This document shows positions 9,014-15,523 of a DNA stretch of 22,585 nt, in pieces. The DNA is taken from positions 1 to 22,585 of the IMG/VR virus record IMGVR_UViG_3300029952_001682; one strand, written 5' to 3'. Position 1 is the first letter of the stretch. The number at the start of each line of letters is the position of its first letter. Position numbers and translations under genes: made by a program. This DNA is from a virus. The notes beneath the pieces were generated by a model. It was given only the letters and a program-made list of their open reading frames with translations. It did no database searches and was not told where the DNA came from.

Positions 9014-9048
9014 GGCGCAACAGGTGGTTACAAAGCACCTGTTGCGCC
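9014..9048. repeat. 13-bp perfect hairpin upstream of the lysin/capsid ORF
   Basis: GGCGCAACAGGTG at 9014-9026 pairs perfectly with 9036-9048 around a 9-nt loop. It is enclosed by a second inverted repeat (AGGAGGCCGG at 9005-9014 and its complement at 9077-9086). No T-run follows on either strand, so this is not a standard terminator. Its place in the 5' leader of the leftward structural mRNA suggests control of translation or mRNA stability, or a protein-binding site. Confidence 0.6.
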
Positions 9049-9185: not shown

Positions 9186-9212
9186 ATCGCCGCTCGTGAT
9201 TCGAGCGGCGAT
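9186..9212 (-). terminator. Rho-independent terminator of the repressor/moron operon
   Basis: TCGCCGCTCG at 9187-9196 pairs perfectly with 9202-9211 around a 5-nt loop, with one further A-T pair outside. On the minus strand the stem is followed by TTGCTTTTATT, a T-rich tail. It lies about 37 nt after the stop of the membrane protein gene, the last gene of the leftward repressor operon. Confidence 0.7.
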
Positions 9213-9856: not shown

Positions 9857-10477
9857 TCATCTTTTGCTCATAACCGAACGGTAGAGTAGCTCAAGATCAG
9901 CATCGCATAGATTTATCATCGACACCTCGTTGAATTTCTCTTTCATGTATTTAATCCGCCATTCTTCCCACCCGCGTTGTTTGCAGCGTGCGTGAATAGC
10001 AGCAATGCGTTTACTGCGCCAAGCAGGATTTTTCTTCGGAGCCGAAACCATCCCTAAAAAGATAGCCTCCCGTTTCTTCAGATACTTGCATGCCCCGTCG
10101 AAATCCTCCTTAAGGATTTCATCGTACTTATTCACGCTCATATGGATGTCCAGTTGTTTCCACACGACCTTATGCGTCAGAGGAGTCCGCTTTGTGGCCG
10201 AAGCCTGTACCACGCTATCGACCAGCGTGTGAATCTTTGCTTTCTGCTGGGCGGTAAGTACACCATCGCCCGTCTTCACGATCACATTCGGCGGAGCTAT
10301 TTTTTCGATACGAATACTCTGGTCGTAGAAATTCCCGCCCACAATTCTATTCGAGCTGCCACCATTGATGGTGACGGACCTTCCCGTTTTTGTGGCGCAC
10401 TCCTCGTCAGTTGGCTCAGCTTCACCTAAAATATCCCTTACCTTCTTAACAACACGCAACTTCCCCTCATCGTTCAA
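9857..10477 (-). CDS. ORF6C-domain-like regulatory protein
   Basis: A 206-residue protein. Residues about 78-140 (helix, then VVWKQLDIHMSVNKYDEIL, then a helix ending in YLKKREA) resemble the ORF6C domain found at the C-terminus of phage antirepressors and related regulators (pattern WxxLxxxxxVxxYxxI...). The N-terminal part carries an NGGSSNRIVGGNF segment like the Gly/Asn repeats that link domains in some phage regulators. The basic C-terminal part (about 150-206) is not recognised. It lies 39 nt downstream of the repressor gene on the same strand, so a role in immunity or its relief is likely. Confidence 0.6.
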   Translation of the reverse strand: MNDEGKLRVVKKVRDILGEAEPTDEECATKTGRSVTINGGSSNRIVGGNFYDQSIRIEKIAPPNVIVKTGDGVLTAQQKAKIHTLVDSVVQASATKRTPLTHKVVWKQLDIHMSVNKYDEILKEDFDGACKYLKKREAIFLGMVSAPKKNPAWRSKRIAAIHARCKQRGWEEWRIKYMKEKFNEVSMINLCDADLELLYRSVMSKR

Positions 10478-10516
10478 TTTCCGGTCTCCGTAAAACGCTT
10501 GTCGATGCGTTCCAGC

Positions 10517-11011
10517 TCAGGCAATTTTCAGCAACCTACCAACTATTGACGAGTCACGCCGACCCGACTCCTGACAGAACTCATAGAAAAGGACCACCAA
10601 TTCCGCATACTTTTGAATGGGAAGCTGCCGCTTCCTTTTTTTGAGTTCCAGATCTAGCGCCTCGATCACATAAACCAGCAGATCTCGATTTAAAGTGCCA
10701 CCTGCGGAAGGAACATATTCAGTTGAGCTTGATTCCTCCTCCGCTGCTTTGAGACGCGCAGCAAATTCCGGACCGGCTTGTTCATACCACCAATGTTTGT
10801 CATCGACCGATATGTCTCCGATCTTCATCAAGGCCAATGGCGGAGGACGGTATTCCCCCCTCTCCCATTTAGACAGGACAGATTGAGAAATCCCTACGAG
10901 CCCTGCGAAAGTTCGCTGATCGAGGCGCAGCTTCTCTTTTCTGAGGGCAAGTAGCCGTTCAGAGACAGAAATCGAGTCAATATGAATATTTTCCTTGACG
11001 ATGTGAGTCAT
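10517..11011 (-). CDS. XRE-family phage repressor
   Basis: A 164-residue protein with a helix-turn-helix of the lambda/Cro (XRE) type at about residues 33-57 (RTFAGLVGISQSVLSKWERGEYRPP, with the WERG recognition-helix end), followed by a helical segment and a charged C-terminal half that may serve oligomerisation. No LexA-type Ser/Lys peptidase motif is seen, so induction by RecA-driven cleavage is not supported. It is divergent from the early operon with only 26 bp between the two start codons, as expected for a Mu c-type lysogeny repressor. It probably binds the palindrome at 11021-11047. Confidence 0.82.
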   Translation of the reverse strand: MTHIVKENIHIDSISVSERLLALRKEKLRLDQRTFAGLVGISQSVLSKWERGEYRPPPLALMKIGDISVDDKHWWYEQAGPEFAARLKAAEEESSSTEYVPSAGGTLNRDLLVYVIEALDLELKKRKRQLPIQKYAELVVLFYEFCQESGRRDSSIVGRLLKIA

Positions 11012-11023
11012 TTTGACTAATCT
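10995..11023 (+). promoter_or_regulatory. Possible early promoter
   Basis: TTGACG at 10995-11000 (5 of 6 to the -35 consensus) is followed after 17 nt by TAATCT at 11018-11023, a poor -10 box. Transcription would begin near 11030, giving a nearly leaderless mRNA for the gene at 11038, and the -10 region would overlap the palindrome. Spacing is ideal but the -10 match is weak. Confidence 0.35.
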
Positions 11024-11047
11024 TGCTCTTAACCGTTATGAGCAAGA
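11021..11047. promoter_or_regulatory. 27-bp near-perfect palindrome, probable repressor operator
   Basis: Arms TCTTGCTC (11021-11028) and GAGCAAGA (11040-11047) are perfect complements. Inside them TAAC (11030-11033) and GTTA (11035-11038) pair around a central C at 11034. Only the pair 11029/11039 is mismatched. The site fills the gap between the divergent repressor and early genes and covers the start codon of the first early gene, so a bound dimer could block both transcription and, through position, access to the start site. Confidence 0.72.
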
Positions 11048-11271
11048 ATTTTTCGCGACAAAAAACGTGCCTCAAGAATAGCAGTTCGAGCCCTGAGCTG
11101 CTCAGGGCTTTGGCCTATGTTGGCCTCTTCACACGGGTCGCCGACAGAGAATCCCTATCTATTGGCCATGTGGTTCAAGTTGCCAAAGGTCGGCGCACCT
11201 CCAAGCGAGTCATCGATGCCATCGTCCGCGAGGTACGCCGGATCGAACAGAGCACGGAGCGCGCGGCATGA
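11038..11271 (+). CDS. Small HTH protein, first early gene (Ner/Cro position)
   Basis: A 77-residue basic protein from the ATG at 11038; a TTG at 11023 would lie inside the operator and adds nothing recognisable. The C-terminal half (LSIGHVVQVAKGRRTSKRVIDAIVREVRRIE) has the shape of a small helix-turn-helix domain and is clearly related to the one in the gene at 11696: both have HVxxVAxGxxTSxRV followed by ExRRI. As first gene opposite the repressor it occupies the place of Mu ner or lambda cro and may turn down both promoters. Confidence 0.65.
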   Translation: MSKNFSRQKTCLKNSSSSPELLRALAYVGLFTRVADRESLSIGHVVQVAKGRRTSKRVIDAIVREVRRIEQSTERAA

Positions 11272-11699
11272 CTGAAGACTTTGCCAGAAAGATGCTCCCG
11301 CATATACGACAAGGAACGGCAGATTACGTGTGCCTGAACCCTTTCTACAACTGGGGTCGCCTTACAGCAGACAGACGGATAGAGCCGTTTCTTTACCGGA
11401 GTTTGGTCGAGAAAGTTGCGCTCCGGACTGGGCGTCCCATGCGCCGAATCCGCGCCCTTATTTGTTTTCGCAATCCCTTTCAATCTCCGGCAGCTTCCGT
11501 TGTCGTTCGATACACAGACGAAACCTCCCATAGAGTGCCTCTCTTCTGGGGGCCAGTCTGGTTTTCCACATCGAGCGATTGGCTGATCTGCCGCGCGGCC
11601 TGCGAGGTTTTGGCTGAGATGGAAGCGGAATATAAGCGCGAACATCGGCAAAAATCGCCAGCCAGGAAAAATCAGCGGAAATCGGAGCGCGCGGCATGA
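11268..11699 (+). CDS. Hypothetical early protein
   Basis: A 143-residue protein joined to its neighbours by ATGA overlaps at both ends. It has a compact, aromatic-rich middle (several Trp, Phe and Tyr) with RYTDETSHRVPLFWGPVWF at about 80-98, then an amphipathic helix and a Lys/Arg-rich tail. No family recognised. It is placed between two genes with related small HTH domains, which suggests a regulatory or DNA-associated role at most. Confidence 0.6.
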   Translation: MTEDFARKMLPHIRQGTADYVCLNPFYNWGRLTADRRIEPFLYRSLVEKVALRTGRPMRRIRALICFRNPFQSPAASVVVRYTDETSHRVPLFWGPVWFSTSSDWLICRAACEVLAEMEAEYKREHRQKSPARKNQRKSERAA

Positions 11700-12025
11700 C
11701 GAATCTGAACGCATCACGTCTTCCTGAGTTCTTCTGCGCGCTGGGGCAGTTGCTGGGTGAAACTACTTTGCCAACGCCCCCCAATGAAGCGCAGGAGGAA
11801 CTGTCTGATTTCCTTGCTGACCTGCGACGGATGCAGAAGTTTTATGGAATCTTTTCCAGCGTAGGTCGCCTCACCGGAACAACTCCGCAGCATGTGCGCC
11901 ACGTTGCGCTTGGCCTTACCACTTCTTCCCGAGTTATGGCGGTACTCGAACAGGAGTACCGGCGAATTCAGCAGGAACTCGGGGAGAGCGAGCAACTGGA
12001 CCAGAAGAACGGCAACGCGGCATGA
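11696..12025 (+). CDS. Small HTH protein, paralogue of the first early gene product
   Basis: A 109-residue protein. Residues about 45-95 (FSSVGRLTGTTPQHVRHVALGLTTSSRVMAVLEQEYRRI) align with the C-terminal half of the 77-residue protein encoded at 11038-11271, sharing the HVxxVAxG and TSxRV landmarks. The N-terminal half is helical and unrelated. ATGA overlaps with both neighbours. Probably a DNA-binding regulator. Confidence 0.6.
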   Translation: MTNLNASRLPEFFCALGQLLGETTLPTPPNEAQEELSDFLADLRRMQKFYGIFSSVGRLTGTTPQHVRHVALGLTTSSRVMAVLEQEYRRIQQELGESEQLDQKNGNAA

Positions 12026-12528
12026 GCAAATCGTTTTCATCACGTACCCAGTCTCCCGCCAGAGCCTCCGGTGTGTCACCGGCTAATTTTGGAGGGATTT
12101 CGACCGTCCAGACCCAGCCTTCTCTCTTCGAGAACCATCTGGATGCACTTCCTGGCAGTCTGAACGATTCCGCTATGGTCCGTGCGGTCCTCATTCAGTC
12201 CATCCGCAATTGCGACAAAAGCCGCGCCCAGATTGCGGAAGACATCACTTTTTACTCTGGCCGCGAGGTCACGGAAATTTCCCTAAACAAATTTACCGCC
12301 GAGAGCCGGACAGACTACCGCTGGCCCGCTGAACTCGACCGCGCCTTCTGCCGCGCCGTCGGCGACGATACGCTGCTGCGCTGCCGCGCCGAGTTGGCCG
12401 GATACCACGTCATTGACTCCACCGAAGCTGAACTACTTGACCTGGGTCGTGAATATCTCCGCCAGAAGCGCGCCAGCGAAAAGGTAGCACTTCTAGAAAA
12501 AAGACTCGCGGGGGTGGAACTAGCATGA
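12022..12528 (+). CDS. Conserved protein upstream of Mu-type transposase, function unknown
   Basis: A 168-residue protein. After a Ser/Pro-rich mobile start (1-45) comes a compact segment: a helix with SIRNCDKSRAQIAEDI, then EVTEISLNKFTAESR, YRWPAELDRAFCRAVGDDTLLRCRAELAGY and an EAELLDLGREYLRQKR helix (about 130-150), ending in a short coiled coil. The combination of a cell-wide HTH-like first part and a WPAELxRAFCxAxGDxxLLRC motif is of the kind found directly upstream of MuA-type transposases in other transposable prophages; its biochemical role is not known to me. Overlaps both neighbours by 4 nt. Confidence 0.6.
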   Translation: MSKSFSSRTQSPARASGVSPANFGGISTVQTQPSLFENHLDALPGSLNDSAMVRAVLIQSIRNCDKSRAQIAEDITFYSGREVTEISLNKFTAESRTDYRWPAELDRAFCRAVGDDTLLRCRAELAGYHVIDSTEAELLDLGREYLRQKRASEKVALLEKRLAGVELA

Positions 12529-14579
12529 GTGCCGCCGCTGCATCTCCCCAATTCTCTTTGGTAGTCAGCTCTGCTGAAAAATGGCTTTCGCCATCAGAAG
12601 CAATAGCCGCAACTGGTTGGACTGAACGCTGGCTGCGCATCAAGGCTCAACTGGGCGAAGTCGTCAGCCGCTCGTCTCCAAAGAAATCCGCGAATGGCCG
12701 CCCCGTCCGTGAATATCTTGCCAGTTCGCTGCCTCAAGCCGCGACGCAAACTCAACTTGCAGTGGTTCCCCCATCCGGCGCGCAGTTCGGTCCCCTCTTT
12801 GCCGGCGTCCCGACCATCACCGGGCAGCGCATCACGTTGCCCGATCCCGATGCCCAGGCACAGGCCGAGCATCGTCTGGCCATGATCGAACCACTACTGC
12901 ATTACGCCGAGAACGCCACGCGGCTTGCGCATCTGCAGTTGCCTGACGGCCGGTATGTCACATCACTCACCCGGCTGATTGAGCACATCTCCATTTGCAG
13001 TCCCAAGCCCGTCAGCGTGCGCACCCTGAAAGATTGGCTGGGGCGCTACCGCAAAGGCGGATTTGCCGCCCTGGCTGATCGCGTTCGCGCCGACAAGGGC
13101 GTTGCGCGCTGGGCCACTCAGAGCCCCCAGCACGCCGAGCTAGCTGACTTGGCCGCCTACGCCTACCTCAACGAGCAACTCAACAAGCGCACCGCTTGGG
13201 AGATTGTCGATTGCCGGGCCAAGCAACTTCAGATTGAGCCGCCCAGCTACGAATCCCTGCGTACCTACCTGGAAAAGCTGCCCCCGGCCGTCAAGACGCT
13301 GGCTCTCAAAGGCCGCGACAAATACGACGATCTCTTCGCGCCTTACGTCCGGCGCGGCTACACCGACTTCGAGGCGGGCGAGATCCTCGTCAGCGATCAC
13401 GCCTGGCACGACGTGCTGGTGCAAAACGATCTCTTCGACGCTAAAGACCGACAGCACCTACGTCTCCGGTTTACCGGCCTTCAGGACATGCGCAGCCGCA
13501 AGTTTGTCGCCTATGCCTGGTCGCAGGATGGCTCCTCGCGGTCGATCAATACTTGCCTGCGCCACATGCTCGAAACCTATGGCACCTTCCGCGAGTTCTA
13601 CTGCGACAACGGCAAGGATTATCTGAAGGTCGGCAAAGGCGCACGTGGACCTGAAGTGGAATATCTGCCACCAGAAGCGCAGGGCGTTTTGGCTCGGCTG
13701 GGTTGCAGGGTCACTTTCTGCCAGCCCTATCATGGCCAGTCAAAGCTGATTGAATCCGCCAATCACATCATCCACCAGAGCTTCGATCGCCGCTGGGCGA
13801 CCTATTGCGGCCCAACCTTCGAACAGCGCCCCGACCGCTGCTCAGCCGCGCTGGAGCGGCACAAAAAGCTGCTTGCCCAGGGCCGCGCCGACGAATCCGA
13901 ACTGCCCCTGGCCAGCGAGTTCATCCGCGCAGCCATCTTGTGGATCGAGCAGGAATACAACTTGCGTCCGAAAAATGTGCCGGGCATGGAAGGCCTCAGC
14001 CCCAACGAGGCATTCGAAAAGTTTCGCTGGCACGGCTCGAAGCCTGCTCCTGAGCCGCACATCCTGGCCGCGCTGCTGGCCGAGCGTGCCCTGCGCATCG
14101 TCCACGAGTGCGCCGTGAAAATGGATAACCGCCGTTTCGTCGGCGTGGACGAGCCCAGCCAGCGGGCGCTACATGACCGCACCGGGCAACAGATCATCGT
14201 GGCCTACGACCCGCTCGACCTCAACGCACTGGCAGCTATCGACGAAGACGGTTGTGTCTTCGCCTACCTGGAGCCGGAGACTTTCCTGCGCCAATCCCGA
14301 GACAACGAAACCCAGGAAGCCATCGCCGCCAGTATGCGCGAGCGCCAGCACCGCTACCACGAAACGCGCGATCAGCTCAACGACCTGGGCCGCCGCGTGC
14401 TCGGTACCGGCTACATGCCGCAGCACAATCAAATGCTTCAGCTTGGCCGCCTGCCTATCGATATTGAGCAGCTTGTCGTCCACCGCCCGCAGCCCACCAA
14501 ACTCCAACCCACCACCATCACAGCGCCGGCCACACCGGCGGAAGCTGCTCGACTCTTCAGGGAGGGACTCAAAAAGTGA
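12525..14579 (+). CDS. Mu-type DDE transposase (MuA-like)
   Basis: A 684-residue transposase that would cut phage ends and join them to target DNA. Domains in order: an N-terminal HTH/winged-helix DNA-binding part (about 15-75), further helix-turn-helix DNA-binding segments (about 150-260, with SVRTLKDWLGRYRKGGFAAL), the RNase H-like catalytic core and a C-terminal beta-barrel (about 535-590, QQIIVAYDPLDLNALAAI). Catalytic residues can be placed at Asp291 (in SDHAWHDV), Asp361 (in YCDNGKDY) and Glu410 (in SKLIESANH); the spacings of 70 and 49 residues are close to those of MuA. The C-terminal tail would contact the ATPase encoded next. It begins in an ATGA overlap and its stop overlaps the GTG of the ATPase gene, so the two are made together. 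Confidence 0.95.
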   Translation: MSAAAASPQFSLVVSSAEKWLSPSEAIAATGWTERWLRIKAQLGEVVSRSSPKKSANGRPVREYLASSLPQAATQTQLAVVPPSGAQFGPLFAGVPTITGQRITLPDPDAQAQAEHRLAMIEPLLHYAENATRLAHLQLPDGRYVTSLTRLIEHISICSPKPVSVRTLKDWLGRYRKGGFAALADRVRADKGVARWATQSPQHAELADLAAYAYLNEQLNKRTAWEIVDCRAKQLQIEPPSYESLRTYLEKLPPAVKTLALKGRDKYDDLFAPYVRRGYTDFEAGEILVSDHAWHDVLVQNDLFDAKDRQHLRLRFTGLQDMRSRKFVAYAWSQDGSSRSINTCLRHMLETYGTFREFYCDNGKDYLKVGKGARGPEVEYLPPEAQGVLARLGCRVTFCQPYHGQSKLIESANHIIHQSFDRRWATYCGPTFEQRPDRCSAALERHKKLLAQGRADESELPLASEFIRAAILWIEQEYNLRPKNVPGMEGLSPNEAFEKFRWHGSKPAPEPHILAALLAERALRIVHECAVKMDNRRFVGVDEPSQRALHDRTGQQIIVAYDPLDLNALAAIDEDGCVFAYLEPETFLRQSRDNETQEAIAASMRERQHRYHETRDQLNDLGRRVLGTGYMPQHNQMLQLGRLPIDIEQLVVHRPQPTKLQPTTITAPATPAEAARLFREGLKK

Positions 14580-15523
14580 CCCAACTCGCCAACAACACCA
14601 CGGATCTTCGCCCGCTCGTAACTGATTACCTGCGCCGCTCTGGCATGTCGTCGGAAGATTTTGCGATCCGCATCGGCTACAACTACAGCACCGTGGCGCA
14701 ATACCTTTGCGGTCGCTACAGCCGCATAGCCAAAGCCGACCAGATCAATGCCGCGATTCTTGCCTTCATCACAGGCAACCCAATCACCTCAGATCAACTC
14801 ACGACCAAGATCTACGAAACCAGCGCCGTCCGAACAATGCGCAGCCTCTTTCATAAAGCCTTGGAACGGCCCCAGGTCTACATGGTCTATGCGCCTCCGG
14901 GTTCGGGTAAAACCGACGTGGCGCGCCACCTGATCGCCGAGCACAACGCCCAGAGCGCGGGGCAGCCCAGCTACATCTTCCGCGTCTACTGCCGCGCCCG
15001 CATCTGCCCTCGCGACTTGATGAAGCGCGTGGCCACGGCATGCGGCGCGCACTCCAGCACCGCCATCGACCGCGCCATCCATAATCTGCGCTGGGATTTT
15101 CGCGGTGCGCGCGTAGTGCTCTACTTCGACGAGTCGCAGCATCTGAGTATTCCCGCCTTCGAGACGGTACGCGAGCTGCTCGACGAAGAGCCACGCTTCT
15201 CGCTGATCTTTGCTGGATCGCACGAACTGGAAAAGACCTTCACCGATTTCTCGGGAACACTGGAGCAGCTTCAGCGCCGCATCACTGACAAGGTCCATCT
15301 GCCCGCGCTCACCGCCGACGAAGCCGCTGGCATTCTGCGCACCGAGCTGGCCGAATTCTCACTCGATGCCGCAACCATCCGCCAGCAGATTGAATTGGCC
15401 ACCATCACCGTGCGCGTGGACAAGCGCAATCAGCGTTACATCTCCATCGGCCGCCTCATGGCCGCAATCCGCGAGATCCGCGACGGCTTGGCCGCCACTC
15501 CCGAACCCGCTTTGCAGAACTAG
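14576..15523 (+). CDS. MuB-like AAA+ ATPase (target-capture protein)
   Basis: A 315-residue protein starting at GTG 14576, overlapping the transposase stop, with GGGAGGG upstream. Residues about 20-60 form an XRE-like helix-turn-helix (DFAIRIGYNYSTVAQYLCGRYSR). Walker A is PPGSGKT (Lys112, Thr113), Walker B is VVLYFDE (Asp185, Glu186), and FAGSHEL near 210-217 fits sensor 1. This is the arrangement of MuB: an N-terminal DNA-binding domain plus an AAA+ ATPase that polymerises on target DNA and stimulates the transposase. Length matches the family. Confidence 0.92.
   Translation: MTQLANNTTDLRPLVTDYLRRSGMSSEDFAIRIGYNYSTVAQYLCGRYSRIAKADQINAAILAFITGNPITSDQLTTKIYETSAVRTMRSLFHKALERPQVYMVYAPPGSGKTDVARHLIAEHNAQSAGQPSYIFRVYCRARICPRDLMKRVATACGAHSSTAIDRAIHNLRWDFRGARVVLYFDESQHLSIPAFETVRELLDEEPRFSLIFAGSHELEKTFTDFSGTLEQLQRRITDKVHLPALTADEAAGILRTELAEFSLDAATIRQQIELATITVRVDKRNQRYISIGRLMAAIREIRDGLAATPEPALQN

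Follow-up and report, generated by a model that had tools for sequence, protein, structure and literature searches.

A 27-bp palindrome over the early start codon as the probable operator of a lysogeny switch in a Mu-like phage

Given a near-perfect palindrome that lies between two divergent regulatory genes and reaches over the start codon of one of them, we asked whether it is the operator of a lysogeny switch and, if so, which of the two gene products reads it. The DNA analysed here (the window, 22,585 bases long in full) is an IMG/VR virus record that carries MuA- and MuB-type genes. The genes that concern us are the following:

9857-10477, minus strand: ORF6C/antirepressor-like gene adjoining the repressor (weak Pfam match at the cutoff; PHROG)
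10517-11011, minus strand: XRE (HTH_3) repressor, 164 aa (Pfam HTH_3; all-helical model, no S24 peptidase domain)
11038-11271, plus strand: small HTH (lambda-repressor-like) early gene, 77 aa, in a Cro/Ner-like position (fold model, family scan)
12525-14579, plus strand: MuA-type transposase (phrog_310, E 9e-71)
14576-15523, plus strand: MuB-type transposition ATPase (phrog_296, E 1.5e-30)

A near-perfect palindrome in the divergent control region

The palindrome, TCTTGCTCTTAACCGTTATGAGCAAGA, occupies positions 11021-11047; its centre is the single base pair 11034, and 12 of 13 pairs match, which confirms an earlier note on this DNA that had counted all but one of the 13 pairs. Among dyads of at least 12/13 pairs with a 0-1 bp centre it is the sole example in the 22,585 bases of the window, against an average of 0.047 per simulated window (300 dinucleotide Markov simulations). 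Under looser scoring, with central gaps of 0-8, 0.35 sites as good as the palindrome are expected per window, and at a score of at least 10 we observed four sites against 0.7 expected. Because looser scoring makes such sites commoner, the placement of the palindrome carries much of the weight: its local P within the 50 nt after the −35 is 0.003, the lowest value that the test could yield.

The repressor ATG stands at 11011 on the minus strand and the early ATG at 11038 on the plus strand, which leaves a gap of 26 bp (11012-11037). Contrary to the note, the palindrome does not fill this gap; it overlaps 17 of the 26 bp (11021-11037) and ends 10 bp inside the early ORF. The early ATG (11038-11040) does fall within the palindrome, as claimed, and is likely the true early start, the only in-frame competitors being TTG 11023 and TTG 11110. 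Matches to the half-site within the control region number only two, both inside the palindrome itself. In a shuffled window, 0.10 half-site matches at one mismatch or fewer are expected, and one such copy was found:

9862-9874, plus strand: one-mismatch copy of the palindrome’s 13-base half-site, at the 3′ end of the ORF6C-like gene, 1.2 kb away

In many of the homologous switches a TTGAC −35 is closely followed by a dyad, whose centre lies either about 10.5-14.5 nt (slot 1) or about 33.5-36.5 nt (slot 2) downstream of the −35. On this scale, the control region of the window reads as follows:

10995-11000, plus strand: TTGACG, candidate early −35 in a conserved TTTTCCTTGAC context
11006-11018, no strand: weak dyad AGTCA-TTT-TGACT, centred on 11012, exactly 12 nt after the −35 (slot 1)
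11013-11018, plus strand: TTGACT, alternative −35 read from the sequence, with TATGAG as its −10 18 nt on
11018-11023, plus strand: TAATCT, weak candidate −10 (3/6 letters), 17 nt after the −35
11021-11047, no strand: the palindrome, proposed from dyad statistics as a slot-2 operator over the putative early transcription start and the early ATG
11089-11109, no strand: AGCCCTGAGCTGCTCAGGGCT, a further palindrome of 21 bp within the early small HTH ORF, perfect at 10/10 pairs around a 1-bp centre

We infer an early promoter TTGACG-N17-TAATCT with a start near 11030; its −10 is weak, and the consensus promoter scan did not list it. The TTGACT at 11013 was provisionally set aside as the early −35, since the start site would then fall past the only suitable ATG. 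The palindrome, centred 34 nt after the −35, sits in slot 2, and the weak dyad at 11006-11018 keeps 6/8 pairs at offset 12 (P=0.047) and is a candidate second operator or a vestige. The two have no half-site in common. The palindrome is probably not the only operator, as the weaker dyad stands at the usual place of the family. The AGCCCTGAGCTGCTCAGGGCT palindrome, 65 bp from the first, also forms a strong RNA hairpin and is possibly an attenuator or a third site.

The two regulators and their relatives

Pfam and PHROG assign the repressor to the HTH_3/XRE transcriptional regulators, and its AlphaFold model is wholly helical (mean pLDDT 85.8, 13-row alignment), with no S24 fold. Its N-terminal helices resemble those of P22 c2 (rmsd 1.2 over 50 columns, 34% identity, Foldseek E 0.04), in a search that returned no E-value below 0.001, and its recognition helix reads SQSVLSKWE. 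A simple motif search found an S24-like C-terminus on the repressors of L007, L010, L011, L012, and L015. The short helical repressors that lack S24 suggest a route of induction other than RecA-triggered self-cleavage, and the inducer may perhaps be encoded by the neighbouring ORF6C-like gene (phrog_17822, of unknown function, E 3.5e-23; phrog_245, “anti-repressor,” 0.0005).

The small HTH protein models as a four-helix HTH (mean pLDDT 81.4), and its PDB matches are weak, mainly to XRE and lambda-repressor-like proteins, the best being Aca7 at E 1.4. Genes of this kind form a family and often stand in tandem: the window carries two, and larger early proteins of the relatives hold two or three copies of the module. 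The small HTH protein of the window is 62% identical to the product of the second, not the first, small gene of L101, a prophage-like region in genome G259, and by this alignment the switch is a mosaic. As an observation in its own right, the modules appear to duplicate in tandem both within and between early genes (11038-12025 of the window; L005, L013, L015, L029, L030, L032, and L101).

Searches with MuA or MuB led to viral contigs and to three Acidobacteriaceae MAGs of bog and fen origin; by MuA, the closest relatives are L002/L004 (87% identity) and L003/L005 (84%). The 12 distinct loci first examined, the window among them, share one layout: the XRE repressor gene is on the minus strand, and opposite it, on the plus strand, a small HTH gene comes before MuA. 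A small HTH gene was found in all 25 larger loci scanned as well as in the window. In IMG/VR neither the repressor nor the small HTH protein had a close relative; we found no match to the repressor in INPHARED, none to MuA in the genome contigs with a single-sequence query, and, among the literature matches listed, no work on Mu-like phages of Acidobacteria. The arms of the palindrome, whose conservation in relatives the note had made a test, failed that test literally: they are matched nowhere in L002 and L003 or, at up to three mismatches, in 398 family genomes, and the 20-base core has no match in IMG/VR, in a search from which records very near the window were possibly left out. Cognate arms are expected to differ, since the short repressors in the alignment are only 22-42% identical to that of the window.

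Dyads after the −35 in many homologous switches

A TTGAC hexamer, usually CTTGACA, precedes the small HTH gene in 19 of 20 distinct control regions, window included. Averaged over 18 relatives, with the window excluded, dyad pairing peaks 12 nt after the −35 at 3.61/8, against an overall mean of 2.05 and a value of 2.08 (sd 0.30) for random positions; values of up to 3.50 are reached at offsets −2 to −5 too, and these we ascribe to the letters that the −35 elements have in common.

The comparison was enlarged to 43 switches: the window and 42 relatives, made up of the first set, 22 of L070-L099, L100, and L101. Left out of L070-L099 were L070 and L071 (duplicates of L015 and L024), L077 (replaced by L101), L080, L083, L094, and L097 (no TTGAC within 200 nt upstream), and L093 (TTGAC only 12 nt from the HTH gene); copies were removed from the first set (L008, L018, L022, L023, L026, and L027), and L030, which lacks TTGAC, was left out of the dyad profiles. 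Among the 43, several are near-duplicates. Dyads spread more widely here than in the first set, and in the mean over the 42 relatives offset −3.5, at the −35 itself, ranks highest (3.05/8) and offset 12, in slot 1, second (2.83). Slot 1 (offsets 10-15) reaches P≤0.05 in 18/43 switches and slot 2 (30-46) in 2/43. If each switch is represented by its best dyad in the 50 nt after the −35 and tested against shuffles of its own sequence, 11/43 switches reach P≤0.05, versus 6/119 control stretches, and 23/43 reach P≤0.1, versus 12/119.

Long palindromes like that of the window also occur in L096, L095, L010, and L006. In L096, a perfect 26-bp palindrome (13/13) is centred on a TATATA −10 and reaches a leaderless-type ATG. 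L015, L033, and L095 have a dyad at offset 43, and L016 a weaker one; this dyad overlaps probable coding sequence, and as an operator of the small protein it is only a lead, because part of it may be coding. In L004, L028, L031, and L101 the distance from the −10 (TATTAT or TATTCT) to the early ATG is 6-7 nt, which makes a leaderless early mRNA probable there; in the window such spacing is not clear. Inspection by eye showed the right operator arm once more, as a third half-site 13-14 nt downstream, in L006 (CGCATAT), L012 (GCTGTAT), L013 (TCATATT), and L005 (CGTATATTC), a hint of possible cooperative binding.

The recognition helix of the repressor and the sequence of the dyad

We then compared the recognition helices with the control sequences in 42 of the 43 switches, the repressor helix of L090 being unreadable. 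The site TAAC-N6-GTTA is present in 13/13 loci whose repressor has an S[APS]M[AS][VP]SRWE helix and in 0/29 others (Fisher 4e-11); after dereplication, nine of the 13 remain. The helix QGT[IL]SEWE goes with ATCGA-N3-TCGAT in 4/4 loci and in none of the rest, and the two loci with QVSVSKWE have one common site (2/2). DQG[TS]VS[KR]WE goes with ATATG in 3/4, but that motif is present in four others too. The similarity of helices correlates with that of the sequences 2-22 nt after the −35 at r=0.48 (0/2000 permutations as high), compared with r=0.11 at 24-44 nt (1/2000) and r=0.10 at 44-64 nt (16/2000); part of this correlation is common descent.

The coded site is centred 33.5-36.5 nt after TTGACA in five of the 13 loci (L078, L079, L081, L082, and L086), so repressor operators do use slot 2, where the palindrome lies at 34. 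A fixed slot 1 for all switches was rejected, the coded sites ranging from 10.5 to 36.5. Most of the TAAC-N6-GTTA loci come from genomes or contigs in which no MuB was found, and this group may for that reason not be Mu-like. Dyads follow the helix at the level of the family. The helix of the window is a singleton and fits no coded group, so the code cannot directly identify the palindrome.

A proposed reading and its alternatives

The palindrome lies between and over the divergent starts, and its dyad symmetry exceeds chance. Since homologous switches show dyads that track the repressor helix and make use of slot 2, it is very probably a protein operator of this lysogeny switch; its placement in the region that controls the diverging repressor and early genes of this Mu-like phage, as proposed beforehand, is supported by the same comparison. 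For the main reader, the chances that it is the XRE repressor are about even. In the lysogen, a dimer of the repressor (10517-11011, minus strand) would bind the palindrome and cover the early transcription start and start codon, turning off the early operon, that is, the small HTH gene followed by MuA and MuB. The bound protein would hold down repressor synthesis as well, because leftward transcription of the repressor gene probably begins inside these 27 bp or right next to them. A second site may be provided by the weaker dyad (11006-11018), which lies two helical turns from the palindrome. What we see directly is the dyad, the layout of the genes and, among relatives, a dyad in one of two slots with a sequence that varies with the repressor helix; protein binding, the position of the promoters, and the choice of the repressor over the small HTH protein are deduced from these. 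We give the whole reading, a dyad operator at which a repressor dimer, as the probable reader, blocks the early operon, a probability of roughly 0.58. Against it stand the arms found in no relative searched, the repressor helix of the window outside every coded group, the poor −10, a slot-2 group mostly from genomes in which MuB was not found, a mean pairing peak at the −35 itself that is higher than the one in slot 1, and the significance of slot 2 in only 2/43 switches.

The small HTH (Cro/Ner-like) protein is a less probable reader than the repressor, and we regard as unlikely, though worth serious weighing, an arrangement in which it uses the palindrome to repress the early and repressor promoters and leaves 11006-11018 to the XRE repressor. 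Such a division of labour would fit slot 1 (offset 12) as the usual repressor slot of the family, in which the window keeps 6/8 pairs, as well as the lack of a common half-site in the two dyads. In addition, the slot-1 stretch of the window, TTGACTAATCTT, resembles TTGACTGATATT of L014 in register, and the repressor helix of L014, GQSAV, is fairly close to SQSVL in the window, a likeness that would favour the weak dyad as the site of the repressor. The small protein itself models as a lambda-repressor-like HTH with Aca7 as its top, if weak, fold match (E 1.4), and the promoters that Aca proteins autorepress contain one inverted repeat or two (PMC9410906). Yet in five relatives the site in slot 2 is itself coded by the repressor, and no downstream dyad was demonstrated to follow the recognition helix of the small protein.

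Three further explanations fare worse. The same letters could act in RNA, as an 8-bp stem followed by AATTTTTC on the plus strand (a terminator or attenuator) or as a hairpin just upstream of the repressor start on the minus strand, and the folding energies agree with this (minus-strand stem, −10.8 kcal/mol, z −4.4; plus-strand stretch, −13.6, z −3.5). However, any DNA dyad folds in this way, and if the early start lies near 11030, inside the dyad, the stem would not be whole in the transcript. A T run is present, but the loop measures 11 nt and the stem has four GC pairs, which does not make an intrinsic terminator; the terminator scan did not report the palindrome, and Rfam had no match in 10400-11800. 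We therefore hold an RNA element to be improbable, and a chance dyad without function equally so: the 0.35 sites of such score expected under loose scoring and the unconserved arms (L002, L003, the 398 family genomes, and the IMG/VR core) would be in keeping with chance, but the placement in the control region with its local P of 0.003 and the enrichment of homologous switches in dyads are not. In Mu, the operator region is also a site for the N-terminal domain of MuA. MuA of the window has some 70 N-terminal residues absent from MuA of L010-L016, perhaps an enhancer-binding domain, so the palindrome might be part of a transposition enhancer; but these residues gave no match to the Pfam Mu N-terminal DNA-binding domain, and the arms are not conserved in L002/L003 despite MuA identities of 84-87%, which renders this the least credible of the explanations.

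As a tentative and rather doubtful extension, the immunity operator of these Acidobacteria phages and prophages could be a swappable cassette that travels with its repressor and fits one of two slots two helical turns apart, at the promoter spacer/−10 or at the transcription start/start codon. The window would then be a recombinant in which the small-HTH array is missing its first gene, the second has come to stand beside the switch, and there is a newly gained long slot-2 operator controlling start codon, start site, and both promoters at once.

Comparison with known switches

The site belongs to a well-known class of control sites and is a new case of it. Like Mu with its c and Ner, this is a transposable phage in which A and B follow a repressor gene and an early gene that diverge from each other. 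Mu has several operators spread over a longer region; in the window the repressor is of XRE type, the control region is short, and we saw no spread set of similar operators. By its Pfam and PHROG matches, the repressor is not a member of the Mu c family. The likeness to P22 c2 and lambda CI lies in the modelled N-terminal domain and in a dyad between divergent genes; P22 and lambda have three similar operators, whereas the window has one long and one weak dyad and a repressor without the S24 cleavage domain.

Phage PY54 likewise pairs a divergent repressor with a Cro-like gene and one clear palindromic operator, and its start codons stand at the transcription starts, giving leaderless cI and cro mRNAs (PMC4488713). 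Superposition of operator, promoter, and start codon, which had been thought unusual, is therefore not so, the L096 palindrome and PY54 being alike in this respect. The PY54 site differs in being 16 bp long, bound by Cro, and upstream of cI in a telomere phage, unlike the 27-bp candidate over the early start of a Mu-like phage. The resemblance to the CI/MOR switch of TP901-1 (PMC7250872) is one of arrangement: two promoters stand back to back around a central operator, another operator covers the lytic promoter, and there is a second regulator on the lytic side. Aca autorepressors offer a small HTH protein with one inverted repeat inside the core promoter and sometimes a second; the Aca model (PMC9410906) holds no divergent repressor gene, and the fold match of the small HTH protein to Aca stands only at E 1.4.

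With this site, the little-known Mu-like phages of peat and soil Acidobacteria gain a defined immunity switch, and the code between repressor helix and operator (13/13 versus 0/29) makes immunity groups predictable from sequence. Elsewhere in the window, inverted repeats at 9014-9048 (15/16 pairs, 3-bp centre) and 9186-9212 (11/11, 5-bp gap) lie between late genes and are probably terminators.
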